From contig JADLBX010000012.1 of assembly GCA_020847435.1 (NCBI GenBank), forward strand, positions 62,001 through 126,000: 64,000 nucleotides of DNA, given 5' to 3'. Below the pieces are notes generated by a model that saw only the letters and a list, made by a program, of their open reading frames with translations, was not told the DNA's origin and ran no database searches. Every line of letters starts with the position of its first letter. Position 1 is the stretch's first letter. Of this stretch, positions 5,148 through 60,679 are shown piece after piece. This stretch comes from Anaerolineales bacterium. Lineage in GTDB: Bacteria; Chloroflexota; Anaerolineae; Anaerolineales; Villigracilaceae. The position numbers and the translations under genes were made by a program.

Positions 5148-6788
<1,641 letters not shown>

Positions 6789-6791
<3 letters not shown>

Positions 6792-17768: not shown

Positions 17769-19112
17769 TCACCACACGCGTTCCAAATTCGGGTTCGCCA
17801 ACGGGCGCCGCCCGACCTTTGCCATGTCCACCCATTCGCCGTGAATTTTCACGCGCACCACGTCGGCGGTGAAATCGGTGACCGTGCTGCCGCTATTGTT
17901 GAACAACCACGAACCGACCGCGTAAATATCCACCGGCACTTCCAACTTTTCGAACTTGCGGATCTTCTCCGGGGCAAACCCACCGGAGACGACGATCTTG
18001 ACGTTGCGACAATACTCACGCGCCGCTTCTTGCCAGACGGGCGGGATGCTCCAGTTTTCCCACGCGTGATCCACCGCCCGGCGGACATTGAAGACCAGGC
18101 GCGGGTTGACGCCCAAATCCAGCGCGGGGTCGCCCAACGGCTCGACCGACACATCGCGCACGCTTCCGCTCGTATCCAAACGGACGCCATACAGCGCATA
18201 CTTCGAGGCTTCCGCTTCGTTGGCTTGGTCGCACAACTCGCGATATTTTGTAAACATCGCTTCCATCACCCGCAGAGAGTCGCGCACCGAATCGTTGTTG
18301 AAATCCACCAGTGCAATGCGCGGAATTCCCGCCGGCAAAATGCGCGCGAACTGCATCATCGCCTCTGCCGTATCGCCGAGGAAGGAGGCGATCGCCGCGT
18401 GCGCCACCGTCCCGCCGCCCGCGCCGCCCCACCAATCGCCTTGCGCGTCGGTCGAGACGAACGACCCGATCGCGTGCGAATAATCCATATTGAAGCGTTT
18501 GATGGCGATGTTGTAGGCGTAGCCGTCCGCGGCTTGGACTTCGTGCAGGTCGAAGCGCGCCGGAAAAAACAACACCGGCTTGCCGCGCGCCGCCATCAAC
18601 GTTTCGTAAACGTTCGTGGCAACGCGGCTGGAACGCGTCAACACGCCGAGCGTCGGCGTTTCGAGCAGGGCAAAGTCGCGATAGCGTCCGCGCGCTTTGA
18701 TGACCGGCTCCGCGCTCAACGGGTTGCCGTCCGATTTGACCACCGTCCCATCGTGGACCGCCCACACTTCGAGTTTGTCCGAGGTGTCAACGAAGGTGTC
18801 GCCGTCCCAATACCCCGTGCAGTGACGGAGCATCGCCAGCGCCTTGTCCACGCCGACGACGATGGTATTGCCCAGCCGCCGCGTGAACCATTGCATCTCC
18901 ACTTCGATGTCGCCAACTTCGATGTTTTGCGCGGACACGTCGGCGGGCAGGTTGGGTTGTTGCCCGGCATACGAATATTTTTCGGACGCCAGCGCGGTGA
19001 GCATCCGCCCGATGTTTTCGAAATATTTATCCGAGTACCAGCCGCGGCGCATCCGCTCGATATCGAGTTTGAAGGTTTCGTTCGTGAGGCGGGAGTTGTT
19101 GAAGATGGACAT
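17769..19112 (-). CDS. pncB: Nicotinate phosphoribosyltransferase
   Basis: 447 aa, type II phosphoribosyltransferase barrel making nicotinate mononucleotide for NAD salvage. Visible: TFKLDIERMRRGWYSDKYFE at the N-terminus, LLETPTLGVLTRSSRVATNVYE, FFPARFDLHEVQAADGYAYNIAIK and VVSGGFAPEKIRKFE followed by VDIYAVGSWLF, the C-terminal PRPP-binding half. It lies downstream of the amidase gene, its natural upstream step. The leader before ATG 19112 reads CTCTTTCCTCCC on the sense strand, a pyrimidine tract without SD. Confidence 0.9.
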   Translation of the reverse strand: MSIFNNSRLTNETFKLDIERMRRGWYSDKYFENIGRMLTALASEKYSYAGQQPNLPADVSAQNIEVGDIEVEMQWFTRRLGNTIVVGVDKALAMLRHCTGYWDGDTFVDTSDKLEVWAVHDGTVVKSDGNPLSAEPVIKARGRYRDFALLETPTLGVLTRSSRVATNVYETLMAARGKPVLFFPARFDLHEVQAADGYAYNIAIKRFNMDYSHAIGSFVSTDAQGDWWGGAGGGTVAHAAIASFLGDTAEAMMQFARILPAGIPRIALVDFNNDSVRDSLRVMEAMFTKYRELCDQANEAEASKYALYGVRLDTSGSVRDVSVEPLGDPALDLGVNPRLVFNVRRAVDHAWENWSIPPVWQEAAREYCRNVKIVVSGGFAPEKIRKFEKLEVPVDIYAVGSWLFNNSGSTVTDFTADVVRVKIHGEWVDMAKVGRRPLANPNLERVW

Positions 19113-19130
19113 GGGAGGAAAGAGATGAGA

Positions 19131-19202
19131 ATTGGAGAATTGGAGGATTGGAGGATTGGAGAATTGGAGGATTGAAGATTAGAGACTAGAGATTGAAGAA
19201 AG
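19131..19202. repeat. Octamer array (ATTGGAGA theme)
   Basis: Nine exact 8-nt steps: attggaga attggagg attggagg attggaga attggagg attgaaga ttagagac tagagatt gaagaaag. It is related to the array at 30941-30968 and, by complement, to 5059-5098. Confidence 0.9.
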
Positions 19203-19211
19203 AAACATGAT

Positions 19212-19315
19212 ACGAGTTACAAGTTACGTGTTTCCTTGTCTACGTGTTTACGTGTTTACGTGTTTCCTTGTTTACCTGTTTACCTGTTTCCTTGTCTACG
19301 TGCCTACCTGTTCAC
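19212..19315. repeat. Octamer array (GTGTTTAC theme)
   Basis: Thirteen 8-nt steps, among them gtgtttcc ttgtctac gtgtttac gtgtttac gtgtttcc ttgtttac ctgtttac ctgtttcc. It runs into the stop codon of the amidase. The same theme recurs at 39860-39899. Confidence 0.9.
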
Positions 19316-20322
19316 TTGTACTCCGCCGCTTTCACCACGTGCATTCCCGCCTCGGCGAAGCGCGCGTATGCCGCGTTTGCCGCGTCGGTGTGGTCTACCA
19401 CGCCGGGGACGACGACAGGCGAGGAACAATCTTCGAGCAGGTACACTTTTTGTGCCAGCGCGGGGTCAACCTCGTTGATGTCATCGAGCAAGTCTTGCAC
19501 CGTCCACGCGACGCAATGGGATTTGGCTTGCCCGGCGATGATGAGGCGGTCAACCTGTTGCAATTGCTCGATAAATTTCGGGTTGCGCGTTCCAAGCGTC
19601 TCGCCCATGGGACCGGTCAACACTTCGGGCCCGATGGCGGAGTAATTTTCAGTGAAGGGTTTGTCTCCCTTCATTATTACTTCGTACTGCGTATTGCGTG
19701 CGATGGAATGAAAGAACAATGCTTCTTCCACCGATGAAACAAGCGCGTGACCGATCCCGCCGAGCAGGGCATGATAGGGCCAAACAGTGAGCGCGTACTT
19801 GCCTTTCTGCTCCAACTGTTCGGCATAATGGAGCATCATTTGCTGTCCGTATTCGGGGGCAATGTCGAACTCGTCGGCGAGGGCGGGGTTGAATTTCCAT
19901 TTGCCGTCGCGTAAGTCGGCGAGGTGGATGTCGCTGTAGGGGGCGGGATGGCTGCCGTCCGCGTCCACGAAGAACATGGCGTGAAAGATCTGCATGGCTT
20001 GGTGCGTGTCCATGGTGGCGGTGATGTGGGTGAGGTTTGCAAGGTTGCGGTAGATGAATTCGCACAGGCGCAGGTTATCGTCCACGGCGCCGCGTCCGCT
20101 GCGACCGCCAACGTAGAGTTCAAACTCGGGAATGCAGAAGGTGTTCTGCACGTCAATCAGCAGAAGGTGGGTGCGCGCCGGGGAAACTGAGGCAGGCTGA
20201 ACCGTGCGCAGACGCGCCCAGTCCCGCGCTTGGTGTGCGCGCGCTTCGTAGGGAATCCGCCAGACCGCGCCGACTTTATCCGCATCGAAAAATTCGGGGA
20301 GGGGTAATGCGGGCTCGTTCAT
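19312..20322 (-). CDS. Nicotinamidase-like cysteine hydrolase (isochorismatase fold)
   Basis: 336 aa. The core shows the catalytic Asp in LLLIDVQNTFC, ATMDTHQAMQIFH, the mid-domain ALTVWPYHALLGGIGHAL and the nucleophile region LIIAGQAKSHCVAWTV. This matches the isochorismatase/nicotinamidase fold; the protein is larger than the usual ~200 aa because of an N-terminal 50 aa extension and an insertion. The position just upstream of pncB argues for nicotinamide deamidation in NAD salvage, which is inference. Codons near 19672-19706 follow a 7-nt period (acttcgt actgcgt attgcgt), probably a repeat in the coding sequence. Confidence 0.78.
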   Translation of the reverse strand: MNEPALPLPEFFDADKVGAVWRIPYEARAHQARDWARLRTVQPASVSPARTHLLLIDVQNTFCIPEFELYVGGRSGRGAVDDNLRLCEFIYRNLANLTHITATMDTHQAMQIFHAMFFVDADGSHPAPYSDIHLADLRDGKWKFNPALADEFDIAPEYGQQMMLHYAEQLEQKGKYALTVWPYHALLGGIGHALVSSVEEALFFHSIARNTQYEVIMKGDKPFTENYSAIGPEVLTGPMGETLGTRNPKFIEQLQQVDRLIIAGQAKSHCVAWTVQDLLDDINEVDPALAQKVYLLEDCSSPVVVPGVVDHTDAANAAYARFAEAGMHVVKAAEYK

Positions 20323-25235: not shown

Positions 25236-26375
25236 TCACATCGAATTTAGGCAAACGGCAATCCGTTTGACGCCCTCTTCGATTTGCTCCGCTTCGTAAT
25301 AAACGAAACACAAGCGCATGAAATTTTTCATTTCGCTTTTGGAGGAAAACAACGCGCCGGGGCGAAAATCCACTTTGAAGTTGGACGCGCGCTTGCGGAG
25401 CTCGCTCACGTCCACCGCTTCGGGGAATTCCAGCCAGAAGAAATAGCCGCCGTGCGGGAGGATATATTTCGCTTGCGGCAGATGGCGATGCAACGCTTCA
25501 TCCATGACGGCGATCTGGTTCGCGTACCTCAGCCTGAGTTTGCCGATGTTGGCTTCCAACCCGCCCGACGCGACCGCGCCGCGCAGCGCCGCCGACGTGA
25601 ACGGATTCAACCCGCCGCCGCTGTCCATGAGTCCGCTATTGGCGAAACGATTGAGGATGTTGGCGTGCGCTTGCATCCATCCAAGGCGCAGACCGGGAGC
25701 GAGGATCTTCGAGAACGAGCCCAACGCAATGACGCGTTGCGAGTCAATGTACGCGCCGAATGATTTTGGCGGTTTCTCGCCTGAAGAGTGCAACAGTTGA
25801 TACGCCTCGTCCGCGACGATGATGAAGTTGTGCTTGATCGCAAGTTGCAGAATCTGTTCGCGGCGTTCCTGAGAGAGTGTATGTCCGCTTGGGTTTTGAA
25901 AAGTCGGAATGAGGTAGAGAAACTTCGGGGAAGCCGAGGCAAGCGTCCCTGCGAGCGAAGCGGGGACGAGTCCGTGTTCGTCGGTCTCGATGGGAATCAC
26001 ATTCAAATGATGGTCGGCAAATATCCGCAGCGCGAGAAAATAGGACGGCTCTTCGACGAGAATCGTGTCGCCCGCTTTGGTGAAGAGACTGCACAACAAG
26101 TCCAGCGCGTTTGAGATACCCGCCGTGATGAATAAATTTTCTGCGTGGACGGAAAACTCGTAACCCTTGCTCAAAGAATCAGCCAGCGCCGCGCGCAAGT
26201 AGCCGTCGCCTTGTTCCGTTCCGTATTGCAAAAAGGAATTTTCGTTTTGCGACAAGATTTTTTGCGCGGATGTGTGAATCAAGTCGAGTGGTAATAACGA
26301 AAGCGGCGGGTTGCCCAAGCCGAGGTCAATCACATCGGGCGGGATTTGCGTTTGGACGACGGGGAGCGGGTTCAT
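25236..26375 (-). CDS. PLP-dependent aminotransferase (fold type I, 2-aminoadipate/MocR-like)
   Basis: 379 aa from MNPLPVVQTQIPPDVIDLGLGNPP. Motifs: FITAGISNALDLL, PTFQNPSGHTLSQERRE (ring-binding NPSG), IIVADEAYQLL (Asp and Tyr contacting PLP) and ALGSFSKILAPGLRLGW with the Schiff-base lysine. This fits the class I/II group around LysN/MocR C-terminal domains. There is no GntR domain, so it is an enzyme and not a regulator. Substrate unknown. The ORF-track start at 26429 overlaps RAYT2; ATG 26375 leaves 21 nt between the divergent genes. Confidence 0.85.
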   Translation of the reverse strand: MNPLPVVQTQIPPDVIDLGLGNPPLSLLPLDLIHTSAQKILSQNENSFLQYGTEQGDGYLRAALADSLSKGYEFSVHAENLFITAGISNALDLLCSLFTKAGDTILVEEPSYFLALRIFADHHLNVIPIETDEHGLVPASLAGTLASASPKFLYLIPTFQNPSGHTLSQERREQILQLAIKHNFIIVADEAYQLLHSSGEKPPKSFGAYIDSQRVIALGSFSKILAPGLRLGWMQAHANILNRFANSGLMDSGGGLNPFTSAALRGAVASGGLEANIGKLRLRYANQIAVMDEALHRHLPQAKYILPHGGYFFWLEFPEAVDVSELRKRASNFKVDFRPGALFSSKSEMKNFMRLCFVYYEAEQIEEGVKRIAVCLNSM

Positions 26376-26382
26376 GGGCGGA

Positions 26383-26388
26383 AGTATA
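26383..26388 (+). promoter_or_regulatory. -10 element just before RAYT2
   Basis: TATAAT lies 8 nt before the GTG start of RAYT2 in a 21-nt divergent gap; a leaderless transcript is possible. No convincing -35 is seen. Confidence 0.45.
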
Positions 26389-26396
26389 ATCGGAAT

Positions 26397-26978
26397 GTGC
26401 CATCGAAATTCGATCCGCAGAAACATCATCGTCGTTCGATCCGATTGCCAGGATATGATTATTCACAGGTAGGCGCGTACCATATGACGATCGTTACGTG
26501 GCAGAGAGAATCGTTATTTGGATTTGTGGAGAACGGGGAGATGAAATTGAATCAATTTGGCATGGTTGCTCTGCAACAATGGGAAAAACTGCCGAAACGA
26601 TTTCCAAACGTCGAGCTTGGCGCATACGTCATTATGCCGACGCATATGCACGGGATTATTGAAATCACGCCTCGTAGGGGCACGGCGGAAAATCAGATAA
26701 ACTTTGACGGAGAATCGTTCCGCCGTGCCCCTACGCATGAACAATTTCAAAAACCTGTGAAAGGTTCTATACCGACAATCATTCGTTCGTATAAATCGTC
26801 GGTTTCTTATCGAATCAATTTGATGCGAGTGACCGAGGGCGTTCCAGTTTGGCAGAGGAATTATTACGAACACATTATTCGCAACGAGAAAGATTTACAA
26901 AACAAAACCGATTACATCGAATCCAACCCCATGTTGTGGGATGATGATGAAAATAATCCCAAAAATGTGAAACCGTAG
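26397..26978 (+). CDS. REP-associated tyrosine transposase (RAYT2) with its own REP inserted in frame
   Basis: 193 aa from GTG 26397 (MPSKFDPQKHHRRSIRLPGYD, the typical start of this RAYT clade); the longer track start overlaps the divergent aminotransferase. The HUH motif is MPTHMHGIIEI near residue 83. IPTIIRSYKSSVSYRIN and NYYEHIIRNEKDLQNKTDYIESNP carry the probable catalytic Tyr. Residues about 93-113 (PRRGTAENQINFDGESFRRAP) are encoded by a 63-nt REP unit, exactly 21 codons, placed directly after the HUH strand. The stop codon TAG is the GTAG of the first downstream REP copy. Confidence 0.9.
   Translation: MPSKFDPQKHHRRSIRLPGYDYSQVGAYHMTIVTWQRESLFGFVENGEMKLNQFGMVALQQWEKLPKRFPNVELGAYVIMPTHMHGIIEITPRRGTAENQINFDGESFRRAPTHEQFQKPVKGSIPTIIRSYKSSVSYRINLMRVTEGVPVWQRNYYEHIIRNEKDLQNKTDYIESNPMLWDDDENNPKNVKP
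26673..26735. repeat. REP type 2 unit inside RAYT2, in frame
   Basis: GTAGGGGCACGGCGGAA (26674-26690) pairs perfectly with TTCCGCCGTGCCCCTAC (26718-26734). The centre AATCAGATAAACTTTGACGGAGAATCG matches the centre of the downstream copies. Confidence 0.92.
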
Positions 26979-27138
26979 GGGCACGGCGGGGAATCAGATA
27001 AATTTTGACAGTGATCGTTCCACCGACGTAGGGGCACGGCTGGAATCGGATAAATTTTGACAGTGATCGTTCCGCCGACGTAGGGGCACGGCGGGAATCG
27101 GATAAATTTTGACAGTGATCGTTCCGCCGTGCCCCTAC
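26975..27138. repeat. Tandem REP type 2 array downstream of RAYT2
   Basis: Three head-to-tail units of about 52-59 nt starting at 26975, 27028 and 27080, each GTAGGGGCACGGC.GG, a conserved centre (GATAAATTTTGACAGTGATCG) and a TTCC[AG]CCG right arm. Only the third closes the full palindrome with CCGCCGTGCCCCTAC. There are no unique spacers, so it is not CRISPR. Confidence 0.92.
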
Positions 27139-27156
27139 TGGCATATCATCCTTTGT

Positions 27157-27162
27157 TATAAT
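27157..27162 (+). promoter_or_regulatory. -10 element for the dehydrogenase operon
   Basis: TATAAT 30 nt upstream of the E1 ATG, just after the REP array ends; any -35 would fall on the last REP arm. No consensus -35 is visible. Confidence 0.45.
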
Positions 27163-27192
27163 CCCTCCAACGACATTCTTCAGGAGAAACAA

Positions 27193-29589
27193 ATGCCCAA
27201 AACGAAGGGTTCTGTTACTCTTCCCCTCGAGAAAGAAGAGATCGTCAAAGATTACCGCATCGCCTATCAGAGTCGGCAGGCTTCGCTTATCGGGCGGCGC
27301 GAGGTGTTGAGCGGCAAGGCGAAGTTCGGCATCTTTGGCGACGGCAAGGAGATCGTCAACCTCGCCATTGCGCGTCACTTCCGCAAAGGGGATTGGAGAT
27401 CGGGCTATTATCGCGACCAGACCTGGATGTTCATGCTGAACGTGATGAGCGTCCAGGAATTTTTTGCCCAGTTGTACGCGCACGCAGACGTGGTGCACGA
27501 ATCCAATACGGGCGGGCGCTCGATGAACGCGCATTTTGCGAACCGCTTCATAAACCCCGACGGTTCGTGGAAAAACCAAACGGAACTGTTCAACTCCGCC
27601 GCCGACGTTTCCCCCACCGGCTCGCAAATGCCGCGCACGGCTGGGCTGGCGTACGCCTCCGTTTTGTATCGCGGGCTCGCCGAACTCAAACCCTTCACAC
27701 AATTCTCGCACAACGGCGACGAAGTGGCATGGGCAAGCATCGGCAACGCCTCCGCCGCCGAGGGCATCTTTTGGGAAACGGTCAACGCCATCGGCGTTTT
27801 GAAAGCGCCCGCCATCATCACGATCTACGACGACGGCTACGGCATCTCGGTGCCAAACGAATATCAGGTGACAAAGAACAATGTGGGAGATTTGCTCGCC
27901 GGCTTCCAACGCAATGAAAATTCAAACGGCTATGACTTGTACCGCGTCAAAGCCTGGGATTACCCCGCGCTGATCGAGACGTTCCGCCAGGCGTCCGAAA
28001 CGGCGCGCGCCGAACACGTCCCCGCGCTGGTGCACGTCACCGAGGTCACACAGCCGCAAGGTCACAGCACGAGCGGCTCACACGAGCGCTATAAATCCGC
28101 CGAGCGTTTGAAGTTCGAAGAGGAATTCGACAGCCTCCGCAAGATGAAAACGTGGATGCTCGAAAGCAAGATCGCAACCGAAAAAGAATTCCAACAGTGG
28201 GAAAGCGAAGATCATGAAATTGTCGAAAACATCCGCAAGACGGCGTGGGACGCGTATTTGAATCCGATTCTCGATGAGCGCGGTCAGGTGGCGGATATAC
28301 TCGACGAGATCGCCGGCAGTTCGAATCACGCGTCGGCGTTGAATCAGATTCGGGAGCGGTTGGCAGCCGTCCCTGCGCCGCTGAGGCGTGACGTCCACAG
28401 CGCGGCGCACGAGGCGTTGAGAATCCTGCGCACCGAGGCGAATCCATCCAAGCAGATTTTGATCCAGTGGAAGACCGAACAGGACGCGGCGAATCGCGCG
28501 CGGTACAGTTCGCATCTTTACAACGGGACGGCTGTCTCAGTCCATGAAGTTTCTCCCGCCTATTCAGCCGCCTCGCCCACGCTGATGGGCTTCGAAATCG
28601 TCAACGCCGCGTTCGATGCGATGCTGGCGCGCGACCCGCGCGTGATCGCGTTCGGCGAGGATGTGGGTTTTCTCGGCGATGTAAACCAGGGGTTCAAAGG
28701 GATGCAGGAAAAATACGGCGCGTTGCGCGTGACCGACACGGGCATCCGCGAGGCGACGATCATGGGACAAGCGATCGGCATGGCGATGCGCGGCTTGCGT
28801 CCGATCTGCGAGATTCAATATCTCGATTACATTTTGTACGCGTTACAAGTGATGAGCGACGATCTCGCCACGTTGCATTGGCGCACGGTGGGCGGGCAAG
28901 CCGCGCCGGTGATCGTGCGTACGCGTGGTCATCGCTTGGAGGGCATCTGGCATTCGGGTTCGTTGATGGCGGGTTTGATTCATTTGGTGCGCGGAATGCA
29001 TGTGCTGGTGCCGCGCGATATGACTCGCGCCGCTGGTTTTTACAACACCTTGCTCAAAGCCAACGAGCCTGCGGTTGTGATCGAAGTGTTGAACGGCTAT
29101 CGCGTGAAAGAACGCCTGCCCGATAATATCGGCGAGTTCACCGTTCCGCTGGGCGTGCCTGAGATTCTCCGCAAAGGGATGGACGCGACCGTTGTCACCT
29201 ACGGCGCGTGCTGTCGAATTGTGATGGACGCGGCGGAGAAGTTATCGAAAGTCGGCGTCGAGGTCGAAGTTATGGACGTACAATCGCTTCTGCCGTTCGA
29301 TATTCATGGCAGGATCGTCGAGTCATTGAAGAAAACGAATCGCATTCTGTTCGTGGATGAGGATGTGCCCGGCGGCGCGTCCGCGTACATGATGCAGGAG
29401 GTGATCGAGAAGCAAGGCGGCTACTTCCATCTCGATTCGCCCGCGCGCACGCTGTCCAGTCAGGCGCATCGTCCCGCGTATGGTAGCGACGGCGATTATT
29501 GGAGCAAGCCGAATAGCGAGACAGTGTTCGATGCGGTGTACGAGATGATGAATGAGGTTGATCCAGAGTCATTTCCAAACATTCTTTAA
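27193..29589 (+). CDS. 2-oxoacid dehydrogenase E1, alpha and beta subunits fused
   Basis: 798 aa. The alpha part (about 1-400) shows RSGYYRDQTWMFML, GSQMPRTAGLAYASVL and the thiamine-diphosphate region HNGDEVAWASIGNASAAEG with DDGYGIS. A connecting helical stretch (about 400-445) follows. The beta part (about 460-798) shows PRVIAFGEDVGFLGDVNQG, TDTGIREATIMGQAIGMAM, CEIQYLDYI and LFVDEDVPGGASAYM. Usually these are two proteins. ATG 27193 follows AGGAG. With E2 and lpd downstream it makes a complete 2-oxoacid dehydrogenase complex; branched-chain acids are the likely substrates, by family resemblance only. Confidence 0.9.
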   Translation: MPKTKGSVTLPLEKEEIVKDYRIAYQSRQASLIGRREVLSGKAKFGIFGDGKEIVNLAIARHFRKGDWRSGYYRDQTWMFMLNVMSVQEFFAQLYAHADVVHESNTGGRSMNAHFANRFINPDGSWKNQTELFNSAADVSPTGSQMPRTAGLAYASVLYRGLAELKPFTQFSHNGDEVAWASIGNASAAEGIFWETVNAIGVLKAPAIITIYDDGYGISVPNEYQVTKNNVGDLLAGFQRNENSNGYDLYRVKAWDYPALIETFRQASETARAEHVPALVHVTEVTQPQGHSTSGSHERYKSAERLKFEEEFDSLRKMKTWMLESKIATEKEFQQWESEDHEIVENIRKTAWDAYLNPILDERGQVADILDEIAGSSNHASALNQIRERLAAVPAPLRRDVHSAAHEALRILRTEANPSKQILIQWKTEQDAANRARYSSHLYNGTAVSVHEVSPAYSAASPTLMGFEIVNAAFDAMLARDPRVIAFGEDVGFLGDVNQGFKGMQEKYGALRVTDTGIREATIMGQAIGMAMRGLRPICEIQYLDYILYALQVMSDDLATLHWRTVGGQAAPVIVRTRGHRLEGIWHSGSLMAGLIHLVRGMHVLVPRDMTRAAGFYNTLLKANEPAVVIEVLNGYRVKERLPDNIGEFTVPLGVPEILRKGMDATVVTYGACCRIVMDAAEKLSKVGVEVEVMDVQSLLPFDIHGRIVESLKKTNRILFVDEDVPGGASAYMMQEVIEKQGGYFHLDSPARTLSSQAHRPAYGSDGDYWSKPNSETVFDAVYEMMNEVDPESFPNIL

Positions 29590-29703: not shown

Positions 29704-30933
29704 ATGGCAACCAAAGTGCTTGTCCCATTGCTCGGCGAAGGGGTCGAAGAAGTAACTGTCATCAAATGGTTGAAAAAGGAAGGCGACTCAGTTAAAGAAC
29801 TGGAGCCGCTTCTCGAAGTGAACACCGACAAGGTAGACACTGAAATCCCCGCGCCTGCGTCTGGGACGGTGTTGAAGATCGTGGCGGAGGAGGGTATCCC
29901 TGCGAAGGTGGGGGCGGTGCTGGCGTTCATCGGGAAGGTGGGGGAATCGGTGGAGAGCGCTTCAATATCAAATGCTCCTGCAAAAACAGAGTCGAAAGTG
30001 GAAAGTCAAAAGTCGGAGGGGCAACCTGCGACTTTGAACCTTAGACCTTCGACCGATCTAGGTTTCATCTCGCCCGTCGTGGCAAAGATCGCGGCGGAGC
30101 ATGGCGTCAATTTACAACAGGTGCAAGGCACGGGGATGAATGGGCGGATCACGAAGAACGACGTGCTGAATTATGTGGAAAATGGAAAGATGAAAGAGGA
30201 AAGAGGAAAAGAAGTTGTCGCTTCACGATCCACGCCACACGCAACCTCGGCGGTTGGCGACCAACTCATCAAACATTCCGTCATCCGCAAGTCCATCGCG
30301 GAGCATATGGTCATGTCCAAGCGCACGTCGCCGCACGTGTTGACAGTGATGGAAGCGGATATGCACCGTGTTGTCAAACATCGTTCCGCCAACAAGGAAA
30401 TTTTCTCGCGCGATGGAGTCAATCTCACGTTTACCGCCTATTTCATGATGGCAATTGTGGCGGGATTGAAGAATCATCCGATAGTCAACTCCTCGTGGAC
30501 GGACGAGGGCGTACTGGTACACAAGGCGGTCAACCTCGGCATGGCAACGTCGCTTGGAGAAGACGGCTTGATTGTTCCCGTTATCAAAGGCGCGGATAAT
30601 CTGTCTCTGCTGGCGACGGCGCGCGCGGTCAACGATTTGGCGAATCGCGCCCGCTCGAAGAAATTGCAGACCGATGAGGTGAAAGGCGGCACGTTCACGT
30701 TGACCAATCACGGAATTAGCGGATCGTTGTTTGCGTTCCCAGTCATCAACCAGCCGCAATGCGGAATTTTAGGCATCGGCGCGATGCAGAAGCGCGTGGT
30801 GGTGATAGATGACGCGATCGCCATCCGCCCGATGGTGTATTTGTCGTTCGTGTTCGATCATCGCATCCTTGATGGCGCCTCAGCGGATAATTTCTTGATG
30901 AAGGTGAAGGAGACGTTGGAGGGGTGGAATTAA
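29704..30933 (+). CDS. 2-oxoacid dehydrogenase E2, dihydrolipoamide acyltransferase
   Basis: 409 aa with the standard order: lipoyl domain (1-76; EVNTDKVDTEI carries the lipoylated Lys), a linker, the peripheral subunit-binding domain (FISPVVAKIAAEHGVNLQQV, about 119-155), a second linker, and the acyltransferase domain ending VFDHRILDGASADNFL with the catalytic HRxxDG. Both linkers coincide with heptamer arrays: residues 97-117 (63 nt, nine heptamers) and about 158-169 (35 nt). Here repeat insertion may have shaped a normally Ala/Pro-rich flexible linker. Confidence 0.92.
   Translation: MATKVLVPLLGEGVEEVTVIKWLKKEGDSVKELEPLLEVNTDKVDTEIPAPASGTVLKIVAEEGIPAKVGAVLAFIGKVGESVESASISNAPAKTESKVESQKSEGQPATLNLRPSTDLGFISPVVAKIAAEHGVNLQQVQGTGMNGRITKNDVLNYVENGKMKEERGKEVVASRSTPHATSAVGDQLIKHSVIRKSIAEHMVMSKRTSPHVLTVMEADMHRVVKHRSANKEIFSRDGVNLTFTAYFMMAIVAGLKNHPIVNSSWTDEGVLVHKAVNLGMATSLGEDGLIVPVIKGADNLSLLATARAVNDLANRARSKKLQTDEVKGGTFTLTNHGISGSLFAFPVINQPQCGILGIGAMQKRVVVIDDAIAIRPMVYLSFVFDHRILDGASADNFLMKVKETLEGWN
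29992..30054. repeat. In-frame array of nine heptamers in the E2 linker
   Basis: tcgaaag tggaaag tcaaaag tcggagg ggcaacc tgcgact ttgaacc ttagacc ttcgacc: 63 nt = 9 x 7 = 21 codons. The two halves are roughly inverted complements. Confidence 0.85.
30176..30210. repeat. In-frame purine heptamer array in the second E2 linker
   Basis: tggaaaa tggaaag atgaaag aggaaag aggaaaa, encoding a charged Lys/Glu-rich linker. Confidence 0.75.
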
Positions 30934-31059: not shown

Positions 31060-31527
31060 ATGAGTGATAAGAAAGATCACGCGGATGTGAAAATCCATCC
31101 GCCGGTGTTGTTGGCGATTCACATCGCGGCGGCTTGGCTGTTGGGCAGGTTTATTGCTTTGCCCTTTGCTATCTCGCCGCTGATTCGCAACATCGGGCTG
31201 GGATTGGCGGGAATCGGATTCTTGTGTGGGTTGTTTGCACTTTACGCGTTCGTGAAAGAGCGGACGACGTTGAATCCGCATGGGTCGGTGACGAGCGTTG
31301 TCTCGACGGGAATCTATCGCTTCACGCGCAACCCGATCTATCTTGGGATGGTTTTGATGCTAATCGGTTTCCCACTCGCGTTTGGGAATGTGTGGGGGAT
31401 TCCACTGACGCTGGCGTTTGTCCCGTTGATGAATATGTTGGTGATCGAACATGAAGAGGCGTACTTGGCGAAAAAGTTCGGGGAGGGGTACACAGGCTAC
31501 CAGTCCCGCGTGAGGCGGTGGTTGTGA
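31060..31527 (+). CDS. Isoprenylcysteine carboxyl methyltransferase-like membrane protein
   Basis: 155 aa with about four membrane helices and the family C-terminal block: VSTGIYRFTRNPIYLGMVLMLIGFPLAFG, then VIEHEEAYLAKKFGEGYTGYQSRVRRWL. This fits the PEMT/ICMT-like bacterial methyltransferase family, which uses S-adenosylmethionine; acceptors are unknown. The stop overlaps the next start (GTGA). It is part of the dehydrogenase operon by position, with no obvious metabolic link. Confidence 0.85.
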   Translation: MSDKKDHADVKIHPPVLLAIHIAAAWLLGRFIALPFAISPLIRNIGLGLAGIGFLCGLFALYAFVKERTTLNPHGSVTSVVSTGIYRFTRNPIYLGMVLMLIGFPLAFGNVWGIPLTLAFVPLMNMLVIEHEEAYLAKKFGEGYTGYQSRVRRWL

Positions 31528-32165
31528 CAGACATCCAATTAAATGTGAATGGCCGAATTGTCAACGCGTATCTTGCCGACGGCGGCGGACGCGGCGTCTT
31601 GGTTTTGCACGCGTGGTGGGGACTCAAACCGTTCTTCAAACAGGTTTGCGACCGCCTCGCCGAGCGGGGATTCGTCGCGCTGGCGCCTGATTATTATCAA
31701 GGACGCGTTGCGACTACGGTTGACGAAGCCAAAGCAATGCTGGAAAACAACAATGAAGAATTAATGGGCTCTGCGATCAAAGCCGCGCACGACCGTCTCG
31801 CCGCGCAAACAAAACAGCCCATTGGCATCATTGGATTCTCGATGGGCGCGGGGTGGGCGTTGCCGGTCGCGGCGCATGAGTCCGACGTTGCCGCGGTGGT
31901 TCAATTCTACGGCGCGGGCGAGGCGGATTACGGAAATTTCAAGGCGAAGGTGCTCGGTCATTTTTCGGATGTGGACGAATGGGAGTCGCTTGATTGGGTT
32001 AGGAAGATGGAGGCGGACATGAAAGCCGCCGGCGTGGACGCGACGCTTCACATCTACCCGGGAGTTGCCCACTGGTTCGTGGAGGAGGATCGCCCCGAGT
32101 ACGACCCCGCCGCCGCGTCGCTGGCGTGGGAACGGACGTTCGAGTTCCTCAAGCAAAACCTGTAA
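31524..32165 (+). CDS. Dienelactone hydrolase family protein
   Basis: 213 aa alpha/beta hydrolase. GRGVLVLHAWWGLKPFFKQVCDRLAERGFVALAPDYYQG is the DLH N-terminal block. The nucleophile elbow reads GFSMGAG, with Ser where classical dienelactone hydrolase has Cys. The acid is probably the Asp in FSDVDEW and the His is in GVAHWF. GTG 31524 overlaps the upstream stop. Natural substrate unknown. Confidence 0.87.
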   Translation: MTDIQLNVNGRIVNAYLADGGGRGVLVLHAWWGLKPFFKQVCDRLAERGFVALAPDYYQGRVATTVDEAKAMLENNNEELMGSAIKAAHDRLAAQTKQPIGIIGFSMGAGWALPVAAHESDVAAVVQFYGAGEADYGNFKAKVLGHFSDVDEWESLDWVRKMEADMKAAGVDATLHIYPGVAHWFVEEDRPEYDPAAASLAWERTFEFLKQNL

Positions 32166-38535: not shown

Positions 38536-39786
38536 ATGACAGACTATAAACGCCTTGCGGCAAAGATCACGACCACATTGTTCATCGCGCAAAGTTTTGC
38601 GTCGGCGGGGTTCATCGCCGCCGCCGCCATCAACCCGATCCTGGGCGCAAAACTGGCGTCCGATCGTTCGCTGGCGACCCTGCCCACCGCCGCGTATTTG
38701 TTGAGCGGCGCGCTTTCGGCTTCAGCGTGGGGCTTCATCATGGACCGCATCGGGCGGCGCAACGGGATCGTCTCGGGTTTGTTGATCGGCGTGGTGGGGA
38801 ACGCGTTGGTTTTATTCGCCATCCAGCGCGCCTCGTTTCTGCTGGTCATCCTCGGCTTGATGATGATGGGCGCCACGAACTCCGCCGTGCAACTCGGGCG
38901 CTTCGCCGCGGCGGAGGTCAACCCGCCCGACCGGCGCGGACGCGCGATCTCGATGGTGGTGCTGGGCGGCGTGGTTGGCACAGTTCTGGCGCGCGTCTCG
39001 GCGGTGCCGGTCAGCGGATTTGTGGTGAGCATCGGCTGGGACGAACTCGCCGGCGCGTATTTCACCACGCTGGTTTTATTTGCCCTCGCTTCGTTGATCG
39101 TATTTGTCGGCCTGCGCCCCGACCCGCGCGACGTGGGCAAGGAAGTGGCAAAGCAATACCCCGAATCAACCCCGCACGGCGAAGCCAGACCGATCTTTCA
39201 AATCTTGCGCCAACCGGCGGCGATCACTGCGGTGGCGGCAATGGCATTGGGGCAGGTCGTGATGGTCGCCATCATGGTCATCACCTCCCTGCACATGGAA
39301 GACCACCAACACGCGCGCGCCGACATTTACACCGTCATCTCGGCGCACACGTTCGGCATGTTCGCGCCCTCGATCATCTCCGGCTGGCTGTTGGATAAGA
39401 TCGGGCGCGGGCGAATGATCCTCATCGGCGCGTCCACGCTGTTGCTTGCCTGCATCACCGCGCCGCTTTCGCCAGACGTGTTGCCGTTGGGCATCGCGCT
39501 CTTCCTGCTCGGCTTGGGTTGGAACTTCTGTTTCGTCGGCGGTTCCACCTTGCTTGCAGATCAACTCTCGCCGCTTGAACGCTCGCGCACACAAGGCACG
39601 AACGATTTCCTCGTCGGGCTTGCCTCGGCGATCATCAGCCTCTCCAGCGGATTCATCTTCGACGCCACGAGTTATACGATGATGGCGATCATCGCCGGCG
39701 CGCTGGCGCTTGTGCCGCTGGTGATGGCGCTTTCTTACATGCGGAAAAGCGCGGCGCCTGCGAGTGTGTATGTTGGGGGCAAGTAG
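38536..39786 (+). CDS. Major facilitator superfamily transporter
   Basis: 416 aa with about 12 membrane helices. The MFS signature between helices 2 and 3 is GFIMDRIGRRNGIVSG, repeated in the second half as GWLLDKIGRGRMIL. A cytosolic loop (about 195-215) joins the halves. TATAAT at 38505-38510 and AAAGAGGA before the ATG give a plausible promoter and SD. Substrate unknown. Confidence 0.88.
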   Translation: MTDYKRLAAKITTTLFIAQSFASAGFIAAAAINPILGAKLASDRSLATLPTAAYLLSGALSASAWGFIMDRIGRRNGIVSGLLIGVVGNALVLFAIQRASFLLVILGLMMMGATNSAVQLGRFAAAEVNPPDRRGRAISMVVLGGVVGTVLARVSAVPVSGFVVSIGWDELAGAYFTTLVLFALASLIVFVGLRPDPRDVGKEVAKQYPESTPHGEARPIFQILRQPAAITAVAAMALGQVVMVAIMVITSLHMEDHQHARADIYTVISAHTFGMFAPSIISGWLLDKIGRGRMILIGASTLLLACITAPLSPDVLPLGIALFLLGLGWNFCFVGGSTLLADQLSPLERSRTQGTNDFLVGLASAIISLSSGFIFDATSYTMMAIIAGALALVPLVMALSYMRKSAAPASVYVGGK

Positions 39787-39803
39787 GCAGGGAGGCGCGT
39801 ACA

Positions 39804-39899
39804 CAAGTAGACACGTAGATACGTAGAAAAAAAACAGGTAAACACTGGAAACATATTTCCGTGTTTACCTGTTTTCTTGTTTACTTGTTTCCGTACTTC
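39804..39899. repeat. Self-complementary octamer array
   Basis: Twelve 8-nt steps: caagtaga cacgtaga tacgtaga aaaaaaac aggtaaac actggaaa catatttc cgtgttta cctgtttt cttgttta cttgtttc cgtacttc. The left and right halves are inverted complements, so it can fold into a long hairpin between convergent genes. Confidence 0.88.
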
Positions 39900-39901
39900 A
39901 A

Positions 39902-41887
39902 CTACTTGATCTCCACCTGATACGCCGCAGATAAACGCGTGTACCGCGTCGTGCCGGTCACGATCAGAATCGCCTCTTCGCCGGGCTTCAACGAAAACGG
40001 GAAGACAGCCGTCTGGTCGGCGTTGACCGGGATTTGAGTCACAGTGGCAGTGTCGCCTTTGACGATGAGCGACAGGCGGAAGGTCTGCGGGAGAACGTTT
40101 TCGACGCGCGCGAACCCAGCGGAGACCCAGCCGCCATCGTCCGCTTCAAAATCGGACTGGTAGCCTGCCGCGTCCACTTTGACGTCGTCCAACAGGAAGC
40201 CTTCGCCGTTGACCGCCGCGTCCGTGATGTATTCGAAGCGGATCTGCACTTTCTTGCCGGCGAATTGCGAGAGATCAACATCTTCTTGAACCCAATCGCC
40301 GGTTTGACCGTTGTAGCCGCAACCGTACGAATTCCCGGACGGGTCTTCAGTGGTGCAGGACGGCGTGGTGAGAATTTCCCACGTCTGCCCATCGGTGGAG
40401 GCTTCGAGGAAGAGATAATCGTAATCGGTCTCGAGGTCGTACCACATCGAATACGACAGCGTGATCGGCGCGCTGGTGTTGGTGAAATCGAACTCGCGCG
40501 TGAGCATCATGTTCGATTCGTCGCCTTTGTTCGACCAGAAGGCGTATTTACCGGAGTGGGCGTCGGCGGGGAGCAGTTTCGCCACCGTCGAGCCGCTGAA
40601 GGTCAACGTGTGATCGCCCGCGCAGTTAATCGTGAAATAGTCAATGCCGTATTGGTTGACCGATCCGCTCGTCGAAGTCGGGCAGGCTGAAATAGGTTCG
40701 GATACCAAAATTCTAAGCGCTTCGGGGTAGTTGTTGTAGTGATAGCGCCCGTCGCCCACAGACGAATCTTGCAACCACATCGTCGCCGCCCAATCCATGA
40801 ACACATCGTCGGCAGTGACGGGTTGCCCCGTTTGCGGGTCGGTGACCTTTAATTCGACAAACGTTTCGTCAATGCTTGCCAGTCCGTTTTCGGGATGTTT
40901 GACGACTTCCTTGGTCGCGTCCTCGCCGAAGCGGTCGAGCAAGTAGGCAAGGTAGAGGAACGACTGCCCGTAATGAGGTCCGTTCGAGCCGGGGTCGGGC
41001 GACCAATCGGTAAGGTTGATATCCGGCTCGGAGACGTAGTAATAATCGAAGTAGATCGGATATCCGTTCAACAGTTCGGCGACCACCGAAAAACCTTCGT
41101 TAATCCACGAGGCTTCGTTGCGGTCGGTGTTCCAGTGGATCATGTGCTGGAACTCGTGAGCGAGCGTGCCGTAGGTGTCCTCCGCGCCCAGGTCCATATT
41201 GTCGGCGTTGAAGAAGAACATTTCGTGCCCGTTGGAATATTCTTTGACGAGCGGGTTGTATTCATCCGGGGTGGAATAATAGCCCGCGTTCGAGAAGCCC
41301 GTGCCGCGCACGTAGATAATGAAGATGCGCGGATCGCCGTCCACGCCGGGATTTGGCTCACTGCCGAAGAACTCGCGGTTGGTTGGGTACATCTGGTTCT
41401 CGAAGGCGTCGCCGAGTTTTTTCAGATCGCCCTCATCGTACTTCACGCCGTTCTCGATCCAGAAATAAATGTGTTCGCCGACGTAGCGCAAGGTGGCTTT
41501 GGCTTGGAAGTTTTCCACCGTATCCATATTCATTACCCAGAAGGTCTCCTCTTCGTCCAGTTTGTATGACTTGGAGGAGACGGTGGTGGGCACATTGCAG
41601 ATTTTTTGCAAGCGACACGCCAGTTCATACGGATTATTTTCCGGCACAAGCGTTTGCGACAGCGTTTCAACGGTCTCGGTAGAGATCGCCTCCGTGGTCG
41701 GGCGCTCGACCTCCGGGGTGGATGTGGGCGTTTCAAACACGTCAATGGGCGGCAATGGAAAATCGGTGGGAATATTTTGCGATGCCTGATAGACGAGATA
41801 CCCCGCCGCGGCGATCGTGAGGCACGCGCAACAGAGCAGGACGGCAACGATGCCGCCGACGATTTTGGCAGTATTGTCTGAACTCAT
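39902..41887 (-). CDS. Exported zinc metalloprotease with C-terminal jelly-roll domains
   Basis: 661 aa. One N-terminal membrane segment (GGIVAVLLCCACLTIAAAGYLVY), a Thr/Pro/Glu-rich linker, then a catalytic domain with the gluzincin motif TLAHEFQHMIHW and downstream NEGFSVVAELL, where the Glu may be the third zinc ligand. C-terminal parts (about 430-560 and 560-661) are beta-rich; the first resembles the immune-inhibitor-A/MAM-type domain (TLSYSMWYDLETDYDYLFLEAS). The body should be extracellular and membrane-tethered. It is near immune inhibitor A and hyicolysin-like enzymes, but the exact peptidase family is uncertain. Confidence 0.82.
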   Translation of the reverse strand: MSSDNTAKIVGGIVAVLLCCACLTIAAAGYLVYQASQNIPTDFPLPPIDVFETPTSTPEVERPTTEAISTETVETLSQTLVPENNPYELACRLQKICNVPTTVSSKSYKLDEEETFWVMNMDTVENFQAKATLRYVGEHIYFWIENGVKYDEGDLKKLGDAFENQMYPTNREFFGSEPNPGVDGDPRIFIIYVRGTGFSNAGYYSTPDEYNPLVKEYSNGHEMFFFNADNMDLGAEDTYGTLAHEFQHMIHWNTDRNEASWINEGFSVVAELLNGYPIYFDYYYVSEPDINLTDWSPDPGSNGPHYGQSFLYLAYLLDRFGEDATKEVVKHPENGLASIDETFVELKVTDPQTGQPVTADDVFMDWAATMWLQDSSVGDGRYHYNNYPEALRILVSEPISACPTSTSGSVNQYGIDYFTINCAGDHTLTFSGSTVAKLLPADAHSGKYAFWSNKGDESNMMLTREFDFTNTSAPITLSYSMWYDLETDYDYLFLEASTDGQTWEILTTPSCTTEDPSGNSYGCGYNGQTGDWVQEDVDLSQFAGKKVQIRFEYITDAAVNGEGFLLDDVKVDAAGYQSDFEADDGGWVSAGFARVENVLPQTFRLSLIVKGDTATVTQIPVNADQTAVFPFSLKPGEEAILIVTGTTRYTRLSAAYQVEIK

Positions 41888-58084: not shown

Positions 58085-59246
58085 CGAAAGACCTCCATTC
58101 GTTTTCATCCAACCGAACGCTCTCACCGCTTTGACGTGAGATGTTCAGCATAATGCCGATCGCACACAACGTCGAAACGAGGTTCGAACCGCCCGCGCTG
58201 ATGAACGGCAACGCGTTCCCAGCGAAAGGCATCAACCCAACCATCACTGCCATGTTAATCGCGGCTTCGACGCCGATCCAAAACGTGACGCCGGCGGCGA
58301 GCAACGTGCCGAGCATATCCGGCGCGCGGCGCGCCACCACCAAGCCGCGCCAGATCAACGCGCCATACAAAGCCATGAGCAGGGTCGAGCCGAACAAGCC
58401 GAGCTCCTCCGCGATCACCGCAAAGATGCTGTCGGTCGGCGCGAAGGGCAAACCGGTTAACTTCGTATCCGCCTGCCCCAAACCCACGCCGAAGATGCCG
58501 CCTTTGATGATCGCCTCGAACGAACGCTGGACGTGATACGACGCGTGAGTCGGGTCCTGAAAACCGGCAATGAACGTATCAACCCGGTCACGCCCGGTCA
58601 CGCTGAACTGCACGATCACCCAGCCGATGACGAGCGCCAGCGCCAGCAGGAAGACGATCTGCTTCAAATCTGCCCCAGCCAGAAAGAACAACGCGCCGCC
58701 GAGGATCAACACTGTGCCTGCCGCGCTCAAATCGGGTTGCAAATAGATCAAGCCGCCGATAATTCCCAAAATCACGCCAAGCGGAATCAAACCAAAACTC
58801 ACATAGTGCAGGTTCTGCCGCTTCGCATACAGCCACACCGCCAGGTAGATCACCGTCACGAGTTTCGCCAGTTCCGAGGGTTGGTACGAACCCTCGAACA
58901 ACGTGCGCGAGGCGCCGAGCCGAATCTCGTTGATGAACAACACTGTCACCAACAAGCCGATCGTGCCCAGCATGGCGAGCACCACCACTTTGCGCCAGAG
59001 GTGATAATCGAACAACGAAAGCACGAACGCCGCGACCACGCCGATGCCCAGCCAGCGCAATTGGCGCATGAACATGTACGTGGACGATTTATACTCGTTG
59101 AACGAAAAATCGAACGAGGCGGAATACAACATGATCAAACCGAAGACTGCCAGCGCGATCACCGTCAACAGCAACGGCATGTCCAACCCGCGCCCGAGAT
59201 TCTTCGTCAGCGAAAAACGTTCGTTTACAAAAGCTCTTGAACCCAT
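58005..59246 (-). CDS. ftsW: Lipid II-polymerising division protein FtsW (SEDS)
   Basis: 413 aa, ten membrane helices. SEDS hallmarks: ASRTLFEGSYQPSELAKLVTVIYLAVWL, IYLQPDLSAAGTVLILGGALFFLAGA, DPTHASYHVQRSFEAIIKGGIFGVGLGQ, FAVIAEELGLFGSTLLMALYGALIWRG and LPFISAGGSNLVSTLCAIGIMLN. The cytosolic C-terminal 45 residues are basic. The start overlaps murD by 22 nt and the 3' end overlaps murG by 80 nt. FtsW rather than RodA is inferred from the division-cluster context. Confidence 0.94.
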   Translation of the reverse strand: MGSRAFVNERFSLTKNLGRGLDMPLLLTVIALAVFGLIMLYSASFDFSFNEYKSSTYMFMRQLRWLGIGVVAAFVLSLFDYHLWRKVVVLAMLGTIGLLVTVLFINEIRLGASRTLFEGSYQPSELAKLVTVIYLAVWLYAKRQNLHYVSFGLIPLGVILGIIGGLIYLQPDLSAAGTVLILGGALFFLAGADLKQIVFLLALALVIGWVIVQFSVTGRDRVDTFIAGFQDPTHASYHVQRSFEAIIKGGIFGVGLGQADTKLTGLPFAPTDSIFAVIAEELGLFGSTLLMALYGALIWRGLVVARRAPDMLGTLLAAGVTFWIGVEAAINMAVMVGLMPFAGNALPFISAGGSNLVSTLCAIGIMLNISRQSGESVRLDENEWRSFGAVIDLRRGNGRRSVSRARRSQRADG

Positions 59247-60679
59247 GCTCGAAACCTTTCTCCGCGCTCCTCAAAATCTTTGAACTCATCGAAACTCGTG
59301 GCGCCCGGCGCCAACAGGACGACATCGCCAGCCCGCGCAACCTCCGCCGCCTGGATGACCGCCTGCTGCAACCCATCCACGCGCGTGATGGAAAACCGTT
59401 TCGCCCCGGACGGGAGGCTGTTCGCCGCTCGTTCAATTTTCTCCGCCGCTTCGCCGAAAAGTATCGCGCAGCGTACGCGTTCCGCCGCGAGTTGCATCAA
59501 CCCCTCCCACGGCAGATTCTTATCGCGCCCGCCGAGCAACAGTACCAGCGGCTCCTCGAACGAGCGGATGGCGGCGATGGTGCGCTCCGGCGCGCTGGCG
59601 ATCGAATCGTTGTACCAATGCACGCCGCGCAATTCACGCACGAACTCCAAGCGATGCGGCACGCCGCGGAATTCCTCCACCGCCGCGATCATCGCCGCAG
59701 GCGGAAAGCCCGCCGCGTGACCGATGGCAAACGCGGCAAGCGCGTTCGCCACATTATGATCGCCGCGCAACCGAATATTCTCGCGCGGCATCAGCGGAAC
59801 GCGTGCGCCGCCCTCGCGCAGATTCAACCTGCCCGCGTCGAGATAAGCGCCGTCCAAACCTGCATCGAGAGTCTTCAGGCTGAACGTCATCAGCGTCCCT
59901 TTCACTTTTTCGCGCAGACTCCACGCGCCTGCGTCGTCGCGTCCCAACACCGCCACATCGTCCTGCGCTTGAAACTCCAAAATGCGACTCTTCGCCGCCG
60001 TGTATGCTTCCATCGTGCCGTGCCGGTCTAAATGGTTCGGCGTGACGTTCAAAACTGCGGCAATATTCGGAGAGCGGGTCATTTGCTCCAGTTGAAAGGA
60101 TGAAAGTTCCAGCACAGCCAGGTCGTCGGGTTTCATCTCATCCACATACTTCAACAACGGGTCGCCAAGGTTGCCGCCGACAAAAGCAGAAGGATGAGTT
60201 GTGAAGGATGAAGGATGAATTTCTTTGGATGATAACAATGATTCATCCTTCATCCTTTTTCCTTCATCCTTGAAAGCAAGCTTCGCCATGTTTCCAACCA
60301 GCGTGGTGGTGGTCGTCTTGCCTGCTGAACCAGTGACGCCAATGGTCTTGCACGGGACAACTTCCATGAAGATCTGCGAATCGTTCGTGAGCGGAATGCC
60401 CCGCTTGCCGGCTTCCATCACAATCGGCAAGGTGAGCGGGATTCCGCCGGAGAGGCACAACACATCCATCGCGTCCAACAACTCGAGCGGATGCCCGCCC
60501 AGCGCCCAATCAATTTGATATTCCGCCAGCGACTCGCGCGCCACGCGCAACTCATCCGCGCCGCGCAGGTCGCTGACTGTGACGCGCGCGCCATGCAGAG
60601 ACAGCCAGCGCGCCAAAGCCAGCCCCTGACGGGCGGCGCCGAGTATCAAAACGCGTTTATCTTTCCAGTTCGTTTTCAT
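59225..60679 (-). CDS. murD: UDP-N-acetylmuramoylalanine--D-glutamate ligase with repeat-encoded insertion
   Basis: 484 aa. Rossmann start RVLILGAARQGLALARWLSLHG, ATP P-loop GVTGSAGKTTTTTLVGNMAKLAF, VLELSSFQLEQM, NVTPNHLDRHGTMEAY, and C-terminal WYNDSIASAPERTIAAI and LLLGGRDKNLPW. Residues about 137-164 (DEGKRMKDESLLSSK ... PSA, 28 residues) interrupt the normal 'MAKLAFK-FVGGNLG' order and match exactly an 84-nt heptamer palindrome. Without it the length is about 456, the usual value. Its leader has no clear SD. Confidence 0.95.
   Translation of the reverse strand: MKTNWKDKRVLILGAARQGLALARWLSLHGARVTVSDLRGADELRVARESLAEYQIDWALGGHPLELLDAMDVLCLSGGIPLTLPIVMEAGKRGIPLTNDSQIFMEVVPCKTIGVTGSAGKTTTTTLVGNMAKLAFKDEGKRMKDESLLSSKEIHPSSFTTHPSAFVGGNLGDPLLKYVDEMKPDDLAVLELSSFQLEQMTRSPNIAAVLNVTPNHLDRHGTMEAYTAAKSRILEFQAQDDVAVLGRDDAGAWSLREKVKGTLMTFSLKTLDAGLDGAYLDAGRLNLREGGARVPLMPRENIRLRGDHNVANALAAFAIGHAAGFPPAAMIAAVEEFRGVPHRLEFVRELRGVHWYNDSIASAPERTIAAIRSFEEPLVLLLGGRDKNLPWEGLMQLAAERVRCAILFGEAAEKIERAANSLPSGAKRFSITRVDGLQQAVIQAAEVARAGDVVLLAPGATSFDEFKDFEERGERFRAWVQELL
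60188..60271. repeat. 84-nt in-frame heptamer palindrome in murD
   Basis: Twelve consecutive heptamers: agaagga tgagttg tgaagga tgaagga tgaattt ctttgga tgataac aatgatt catcctt catcctt tttcctt catcctt. GAAGGATGAAGGATGAAT (60203-60220) pairs with ATTCATCCTTCATCCTT (60241-60257). Confidence 0.92.

Follow-up and report, generated by a model that had tools for sequence, protein, structure and literature searches.

Dispersed heptamer-built palindromes appear to keep rewriting core-enzyme linkers in a lineage of Anaerolineales

We analyzed a 64,000-nt stretch of the genome of an Anaerolineales bacterium (assembly GCA_020847435.1, contig JADLBX010000012.1, positions 62,001 to 126,000), here called the window. 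It contains a gene for the E2 acyltransferase of a 2-oxoacid dehydrogenase, and the first interdomain linker of this protein is encoded by an array of 7-nt units. In this lineage, core-enzyme linkers appear to be rewritten again and again by scattered repeats. Copies of the linker element are dispersed through the genome and reside in frame in core enzymes. Repeat arrays of this type lie preferentially outside Pfam domains. Fixed sites hold different repeat families in different species, and the E2 linkers are nearly constant in length. We consider it probable that the E2 array is a copy of a lineage-specific family of palindromic repeats (about 55 to 70 nt, with degenerate 7-nt arms) that was fixed in frame, and that such sites are overwritten under selection for length.

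The E2 linker arrays

The E2 gene contains the following features. All coordinates are positions in the window.

29704 to 30933, + strand: E2 gene, 409 aa (Pfam Biotin_lipoyl, E3_binding and 2-oxoacid_dh)
29713 to 29928, + strand: lipoyl domain, residues 4 to 75 (Pfam PF00364)
29989 to 30054, + strand: heptamer-built palindromic element, 66 nt, in frame in linker 1 (covariance model R1, 69.5 bits, model positions 1 to 61 of 61)
29991 to 30019, + strand: left arm, AGTCGAA-type heptamers (inverted-repeat search)
30020 to 30024, + strand: 5-nt loop separating the arms (inverted-repeat search)
30025 to 30053, + strand: right arm, ACCTTCG-type heptamers, 76% complementary to the left arm (inverted-repeat search)
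30064 to 30168, + strand: E3-binding (peripheral subunit-binding) domain, residues 121 to 155 (Pfam PF02817)
30175 to 30211, + strand: second heptamer array, GGAAAGA type, at the start of linker 2 (lag-7 identity 0.77; Tandem Repeats Finder [TRF])
30265 to 30924, + strand: catalytic acyltransferase domain, residues 188 to 407 (Pfam PF00198)

The original prediction described nine in-frame heptamers between the lipoyl and subunit-binding domains and a second purine array in the next linker. Both arrays are real. The first spans 63 nt (29992 to 30054) and encodes residues 96 to 116, approximately, between the two Pfam domains. Its units are TCGAAAG, TGGAAAG, TCAAAAG, TCGGAGG, GGCAACC, TGCGACT, TTGAACC, TTAGACC and TTCGACC, and column 5 is A in all nine. 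Identity at lag 7 is 0.61, compared with 0.11 to 0.44 at the other lags, lags 14 and 21 excepted. The 7-nt periodicity exceeds that of sequences with shuffled bases or shuffled codons (P ≤ 0.0005, the smallest value that could be resolved) and that of protein-preserving synonymous-codon resampling (P = 0.0035). The palindrome score exceeds every sample of all three nulls (P = 0.0005). Only weak pieces of the array are found by TRF alone. The heptamers are not a plain tandem series. Units 1 to 4 and units 6 to 9 are oppositely oriented and form an imperfect inverted repeat with 29-nt arms. The linker 2 array is also 7-periodic (P = 0.0005 under three nulls). It is not palindromic in the null tests that were used for linker 1.

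It is hardly credible that these patterns come from ordinary fast drift of a low-complexity linker, with the periodicity arising from amino acid composition. E2 linkers are variable in general, and some outgroup linkers are Ala/Pro rich and contain no array, as drift would have it. However, the periodicity and the palindrome remain significant when synonymous codons of the same protein are resampled, which rules out a composition artifact.

The palindrome might also be a functional nucleic acid element, such as an mRNA hairpin or a protein-binding site, that is merely located in the linker. Folded as DNA, the element has a better energy than 200 of 200 shuffles (z = −3.1), and its arms are partly complementary. 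Folded as RNA, it is ordinary (z = −1.2). Sister species have no array or unrelated arrays at this position, and copies occur in unrelated genes. We regard a function of this kind as very improbable.

The translated linker 1 array is ESKVESQKSEGQPATLNLRPST. It is a hydrophilic spacer with no predicted secondary structure and low predicted confidence. In an AlphaFold model of E2 (mean predicted local distance difference test [pLDDT] score, 65.5), the linkers have pLDDT values below 50; apart from the catalytic and E3-binding domains, the model, which rests on a shallow alignment, is weak, and the low linker confidence is mild support only.

Dispersed copies of the linker 1 element

The consensus of 20 aligned copies is GAGTCGAAAGTCGAAAGTCAAAAGTC-N(3-10)-CNTGCGACCTTNGACCTTCGACCTTCGACC. 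A 78-base query retrieved full-length relatives at 73 to 78% identity elsewhere in the genome and in the genus. The R1 model matches 35 of 61 relatives. Of 101 genomes across the phylum, 11 have matches; 9 come from the family-level group of the window itself and 2 from one distant family. The R1 family occurs across the family-level clade of the window and is scarce elsewhere. In the window's genome, there are 17 to 22 matches counting both strands, or about 10 elements. These totals are indicative, as R1 was built partly from matches to the window query; many matches are in genomes that were not used for building.

The two genomes of the distant family (f28), G176 with 12 matches and G142 with 3, belong to one genus far from the order of the window. 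Their matches could be due to exchange or convergence.

Eight full-length copies in the window's genome were examined. Four are in frame in core enzymes, one of these being the copy in E2 linker 1, and four are at gene boundaries. The copy in MutS2 lies between the Pfam MSSS and Smr domains. The copy in the fused glycyl-tRNA synthetase (GlyQS) occupies residues 282 to 312, exactly between the Pfam alpha (residues 5 to 281) and beta (from residue 313) regions. The copy in LigA is at the same site as in the orthologue of relative G010, which has about 15 extra residues there relative to Escherichia coli LigA (4glx). A second E2 paralogue has a ninth, partial copy (a weaker half-element) in its linker.

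Two further inserts were seen in these enzymes. At a second GlyQS site (L226, 1700 to 2100, compared with L231), the window's genome has a SPSPSGRGVRGEG-type insert and G010 has the AAAGTC element. In LigA of the window's genome (L246, open reading frame [ORF] 692 to 2698), the BRCT-like C terminus is immediately preceded by a further heptamer-like peptide, GGKSKVESRKSN.

E2 orthologues were found in 56 of the 61 relatives. R1 copies are at a nearly identical linker 1 offset in G000, G012, G010, G014, G015 and G007 and, in other genera, in G018 and G025 (weak). The E2 tree fits a single ancestral linker 1 copy that was lost seven times or, by Fitch parsimony, five changes. Because other genera have related copies at a closely similar offset, the linker 1 copy probably predates the genus and was later replaced in several lineages. 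Independent insertions or interspecies exchange are possible alternatives.

Linker turnover among relatives

The same two E2 linkers hold different heptamer families across 30 relatives. Linker 2 contains GGAAAGA in the window's genome, AAGGTCG/AACCTGC in the nearest relative (G012), a GACCACA/ATCGTCC hairpin in G013 and AGACCGT/CAACCGT in G021. It contains other dispersed repeats in G015, G008, G014 and G024. A search with E2 against genome contigs retrieved Anaerolineales and Chloroflexi metagenome-assembled genomes and no strain of the same species.

Sister species can differ strongly in the linkers alone. In G005/G007 (bootstrap, 100), the flanks are 0.90 identical and the codon-aligned linkers 1 and 2 are 0.41 and 0.45 identical. 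In G015/G008 (bootstrap, 99), the values are 0.91 for the flanks and 0.46 and 0.66 for the linkers. In the close pair G010/G013, they are 0.88 and 0.57 and 0.42. A clade with little or no array has flanks that are 0.96 to 0.97 identical, and both of its linkers are 0.90 to 0.97 identical. At four-fold sites, the diverged pairs retain identities of 0.69 to 0.74, so point drift alone is an insufficient explanation. Among 233 non-independent orthologue pairs, arrays make up 16% of internal divergent stretches, compared with 0.6% of aligned residues. Arrays are present in 22 of 63 divergent stretches.

Three other genes, chosen because they had diverged, show turnover like that of the E2 linkers: MutS2 (three sites), MurD and an acyl coenzyme A (acyl-CoA) carboxylase subunit. 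Two of the arrays concerned are in the window.

5971 to 6015, + strand: GAAAGTG hairpin array in the carboxyltransferase gene 5148 to 6791 (weak R1 match; gene by Pfam)
60202 to 60271, − strand: GGATGAA hairpin array in the MurD gene 59225 to 60679 (repeat catalogue)

The carboxyltransferase site holds a different heptamer family in G012. An empty state of the MurD site has 17 residues in five relatives, compared with 20 to 50 residues in the others, mostly with arrays. The solved MurD is also without an insert.

Homologous exchange between species of the genus could swap whole linkers. Species that are not sisters share the AAAGTC element at E2 linker 1 and at MutS2 site III, and the five Fitch changes on the E2 tree would fit such exchange. 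In G001/G007, one linker is replaced while the other stays 95% identical. However, similarity in the 60 nt adjoining a replaced linker is close to that over the remainder of the gene, so any exchanged tract would be short. Exchange also leaves the dispersed copies and the origin of the families unexplained. We consider it unlikely as the general explanation.

Other repeats were seen in the E2 linkers of relatives. In the G024 E2 locus (L015), a palindrome, CCCGCCCTGGCGGTCGGGCCAGGG, translated as QPALAVGPG, is in frame in both linkers of the one gene. Linker 2 of L006, L011 and L004 contains another dispersed repeat in frame, of the PEPVEG or LSLSKG type (DNA, CTGAG...GTCGAAGG). Linker 1 of G017 (L014) contains an 18-nt unit, CCCACAGGGACGCTTCGC, twice, amid CAGTGGT-type heptamers.

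Linker length and local expansion

In the genus, linker 1 is 105 to 150 nt long and linker 2 is 69 to 102 nt long. Nine of the 18 members have a linker 2 of 78 nt. The original prediction had repeat insertion as a possible route to both new linker sequence and length variation, with length differences among relatives in multiples of 21 nt. Such multiples account for 4 of 132 nonzero pairwise differences in linker 1 and 5 of 115 in linker 2, below the 1/7 expected by chance. The route to new sequence is borne out by the dispersed copies and by the family differences between sisters. The tight lengths do not bear out the length variation. Linker length looks constrained while the sequence is replaced. 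The relatives differ in which sequence the linker has and not in how many repeats it has, and each change seems to involve a palindromic or mosaic array as a whole.

Local slippage, by which the linker would have grown in place on a heptamer and would vary by gain or loss of units, has some precedent. Among the longer simple repeats of bacteria, the heptamer is the most frequent unit (PMC4679880, PMC4692102), and clean direct repeats are present in some relatives, for example, (CAGTGATCAGTTAT)n at MutS2 site I of G008. But the E2 array is palindromic and has full-length homologues elsewhere, the linker length does not change in 21-nt steps, and one site holds different families in sister species. 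Slippage is largely refuted for linker 1, and we think it quite improbable as the source of these linkers. With near-constant length and length differences that are seldom multiples of 21 nt, replacement or insertion by dispersed repeats is supported over local array expansion.

Heptamer and octamer arrays in the genus

Arrays with a period of 7 or 8, or of the multiples 14 and 16, are enriched in the stretches sampled from three genomes of the genus. Markov-3 simulations give no such arrays, which also speaks against drift. Each of the three genomes contains period-7 arrays. Most of the genomes analyzed are metagenome assemblies, and genes in the sampled stretches were called heuristically. 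There are many families, including GTAATTG, AGTCTCC, CAGTGAN, ATCGTCN, TCATCCT and 8-mers such as GTAAACAG. The catalogued arrays are direct or mirrored and genic or intergenic. Exact-pattern counts over 121 genomes indicate genome-wide dispersal; the reversed control pattern gave few or no matches in most genomes, and a few genomes did contain matches to it.

Genic arrays lie outside Pfam domains in 16 of 22 cases, compared with 9.1 expected (P = 0.0009); one of the 16, the second amidase array, depends on the assumed ends of a second Pfam stretch. The mean number of stop-bearing frames of genic arrays is 0.80 of 3 in sense and 1.13 of 3 in antisense, compared with 1.4 to 1.5 for intergenic arrays; open frames avoid stops by definition.

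The window also contains large intergenic arrays with an 8-nt period, at 19107 to 19319 (GAGAATTG type) and at 39773 to 39909 (GTAAACAG and CTGTTTAC types). The latter is mirrored and forms a hairpin.

Proposed origin of the linker arrays

Our explanation has several steps. A copying or insertion process would generate the array copies. These would persist where the protein tolerates them, and cases that break the frame or the fold would be removed by selection. Occupied sites would then tend to be overwritten by other arrays, for which template switching and recombination between arrays are candidate mechanisms. Selection on spacing would maintain the E2 linker length during overwriting. Because 7 is 1 modulo 3, an array of at least three units traverses all three codon phases and gives nearly the same peptide whatever the entry phase. 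This would require that the net length change be divisible by 3 and that none of the units create a stop codon.

Several points weigh against this explanation. In free gapped alignment, the diverged linkers are about 0.60 identical, slightly more than codon shuffles; replacement is thus not established in every individual pair. Several linkers have no detectable array. Some switches could be interspecies homologous exchange or decay of old arrays. The selection of MutS2, MurD and the carboxylase by their divergence, the partly query-built R1 model, the doubling of match counts by the palindrome and the heuristic gene calls count on the same side. No target-site duplication of the kind expected of a miniature inverted-repeat transposable element (MITE) was seen by eye in 20 aligned flanks, and the entire element is the inverted repeat. 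Homologues of Y1 transposases (Y1_Tnp), the group of the REP-associated tyrosine transposases (RAYTs; REP, repetitive extragenic palindrome), are present in 57 of 61 relatives irrespective of array load and so do not discriminate.

A stronger version would have a dedicated and possibly still active process that copies heptamer palindromes and preferentially overwrites arrays. It would reprogram linkers and loops of E2, MutS2, MurD, GlyQS, LigA and acyl-CoA carboxylase in cassette fashion, with length kept by selection. We find this version rather doubtful.

Genes surrounding E2

A fused E1 gene (27109 to 29589) is upstream of E2, and a gene for an E3-type dehydrogenase is downstream. In the operon, E2 is separated from the E3-type dehydrogenase gene by genes for a methyltransferase-like protein (PEMT) and a dienelactone hydrolase (31060 to 32165). 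The ORF at 26346 to 26978 resembles a RAYT by eye and has no Pfam match at 1e-5. Three 52-bp tandem repeats with GTAGGGGCA come after this ORF, immediately upstream of E1 (26346 to 27129).

Comparison with known repeats

Repeats in coding sequences are usually viewed as rare accidents of reduced genomes, such as those of Rickettsia, or as expansions of units of three. Rickettsia palindromic elements (RPEs) are dispersed palindromes that lie in frame in unrelated functional genes, including metabolic and repair genes (PMC10969869, PMC3733652). The element described here is likewise present as dispersed palindromic copies in one genome and in frame in unrelated genes (E2, MutS2, GlyQS and LigA). 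In contrast, RPEs are homologous families of about 150 bp in Rickettsia, and the elements here are 55 to 70 nt, have degenerate heptamer arms and are in Chloroflexota. Many sequence families share the design here and swap at a site; RPE-1 to RPE-10 were compared by description only. Intragenic REPs of the GTAG/CGTC families are short palindromes in genes, often those of replication and repair, and insertion in flexible linkers has been suggested for them (PMC3733652). Two Xanthomonas species have different REPs at about the same recB site (PMC3733652). Unlike these REPs, the R1 consensus ends in GAGTCG...TTCGACC, with no terminal GTAG/CGTC, and its arms are heptamer periodic.

Repeats of TAACTGA in Beggiatoaceae and Cyanobacteria are mainly intergenic (PMC4679880). 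Heptamer arrays are also present in Xanthomonas and Nostoc (PMC4692102), and (GATAGRA)n repeats are present in Chloroflexus aurantiacus, of the same phylum as the window (PMC6749651). The TAACTGA and (GATAGRA)n repeats resemble the arrays here in being genome-wide heptamer arrays; they are direct repeats of a single heptamer, and the reports did not focus on coding linkers. Tandem repeats in ORFs of Borgs (PMC9879509) also generate disordered protein stretches, but the units here are 7 or 8 nt, not divisible by three, and palindromic. PARCEL is a 25-residue amphipathic tandem motif (PMC2996958); the peptide here instead cycles at 7 residues within about 22 residues. In the open-licence papers searched, we found no heptamer or palindromic repeats in coding genes of Chloroflexota and no combination of heptamer palindromes, coding linkers and replacement of families at a fixed site.

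The repeat unit of the P6b stem-loop in the Nostoc trnL intron is a heptamer. This stem-loop is built of repeats, and repeat classes replace each other at the one site across lineages (PMC4476775). The P6b stem-loop shares class replacement at a fixed site with the arrays here, and the short tandemly repeated repetitive (STRR) sequences of cyanobacteria share degenerate tandem 7-nt units and genome-wide dispersal. They are intronic or intergenic, whereas the arrays here are translated; this comparison is by description and not by sequence. In a lineage of Chloroflexota, 7-nt-based palindromes are present in the linkers of core enzymes, and the repeat family differs between sister species. The way in which dispersed DNA repeats provide proteins with new disordered sequence thereby becomes testable, as does the question whether it is the sequence of a linker, rather than its length, that matters to multidomain enzymes such as E2. 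The exchange of one repeat class for another at a given site, as seen in the Nostoc intron, is extended here to protein-coding genes of another phylum.
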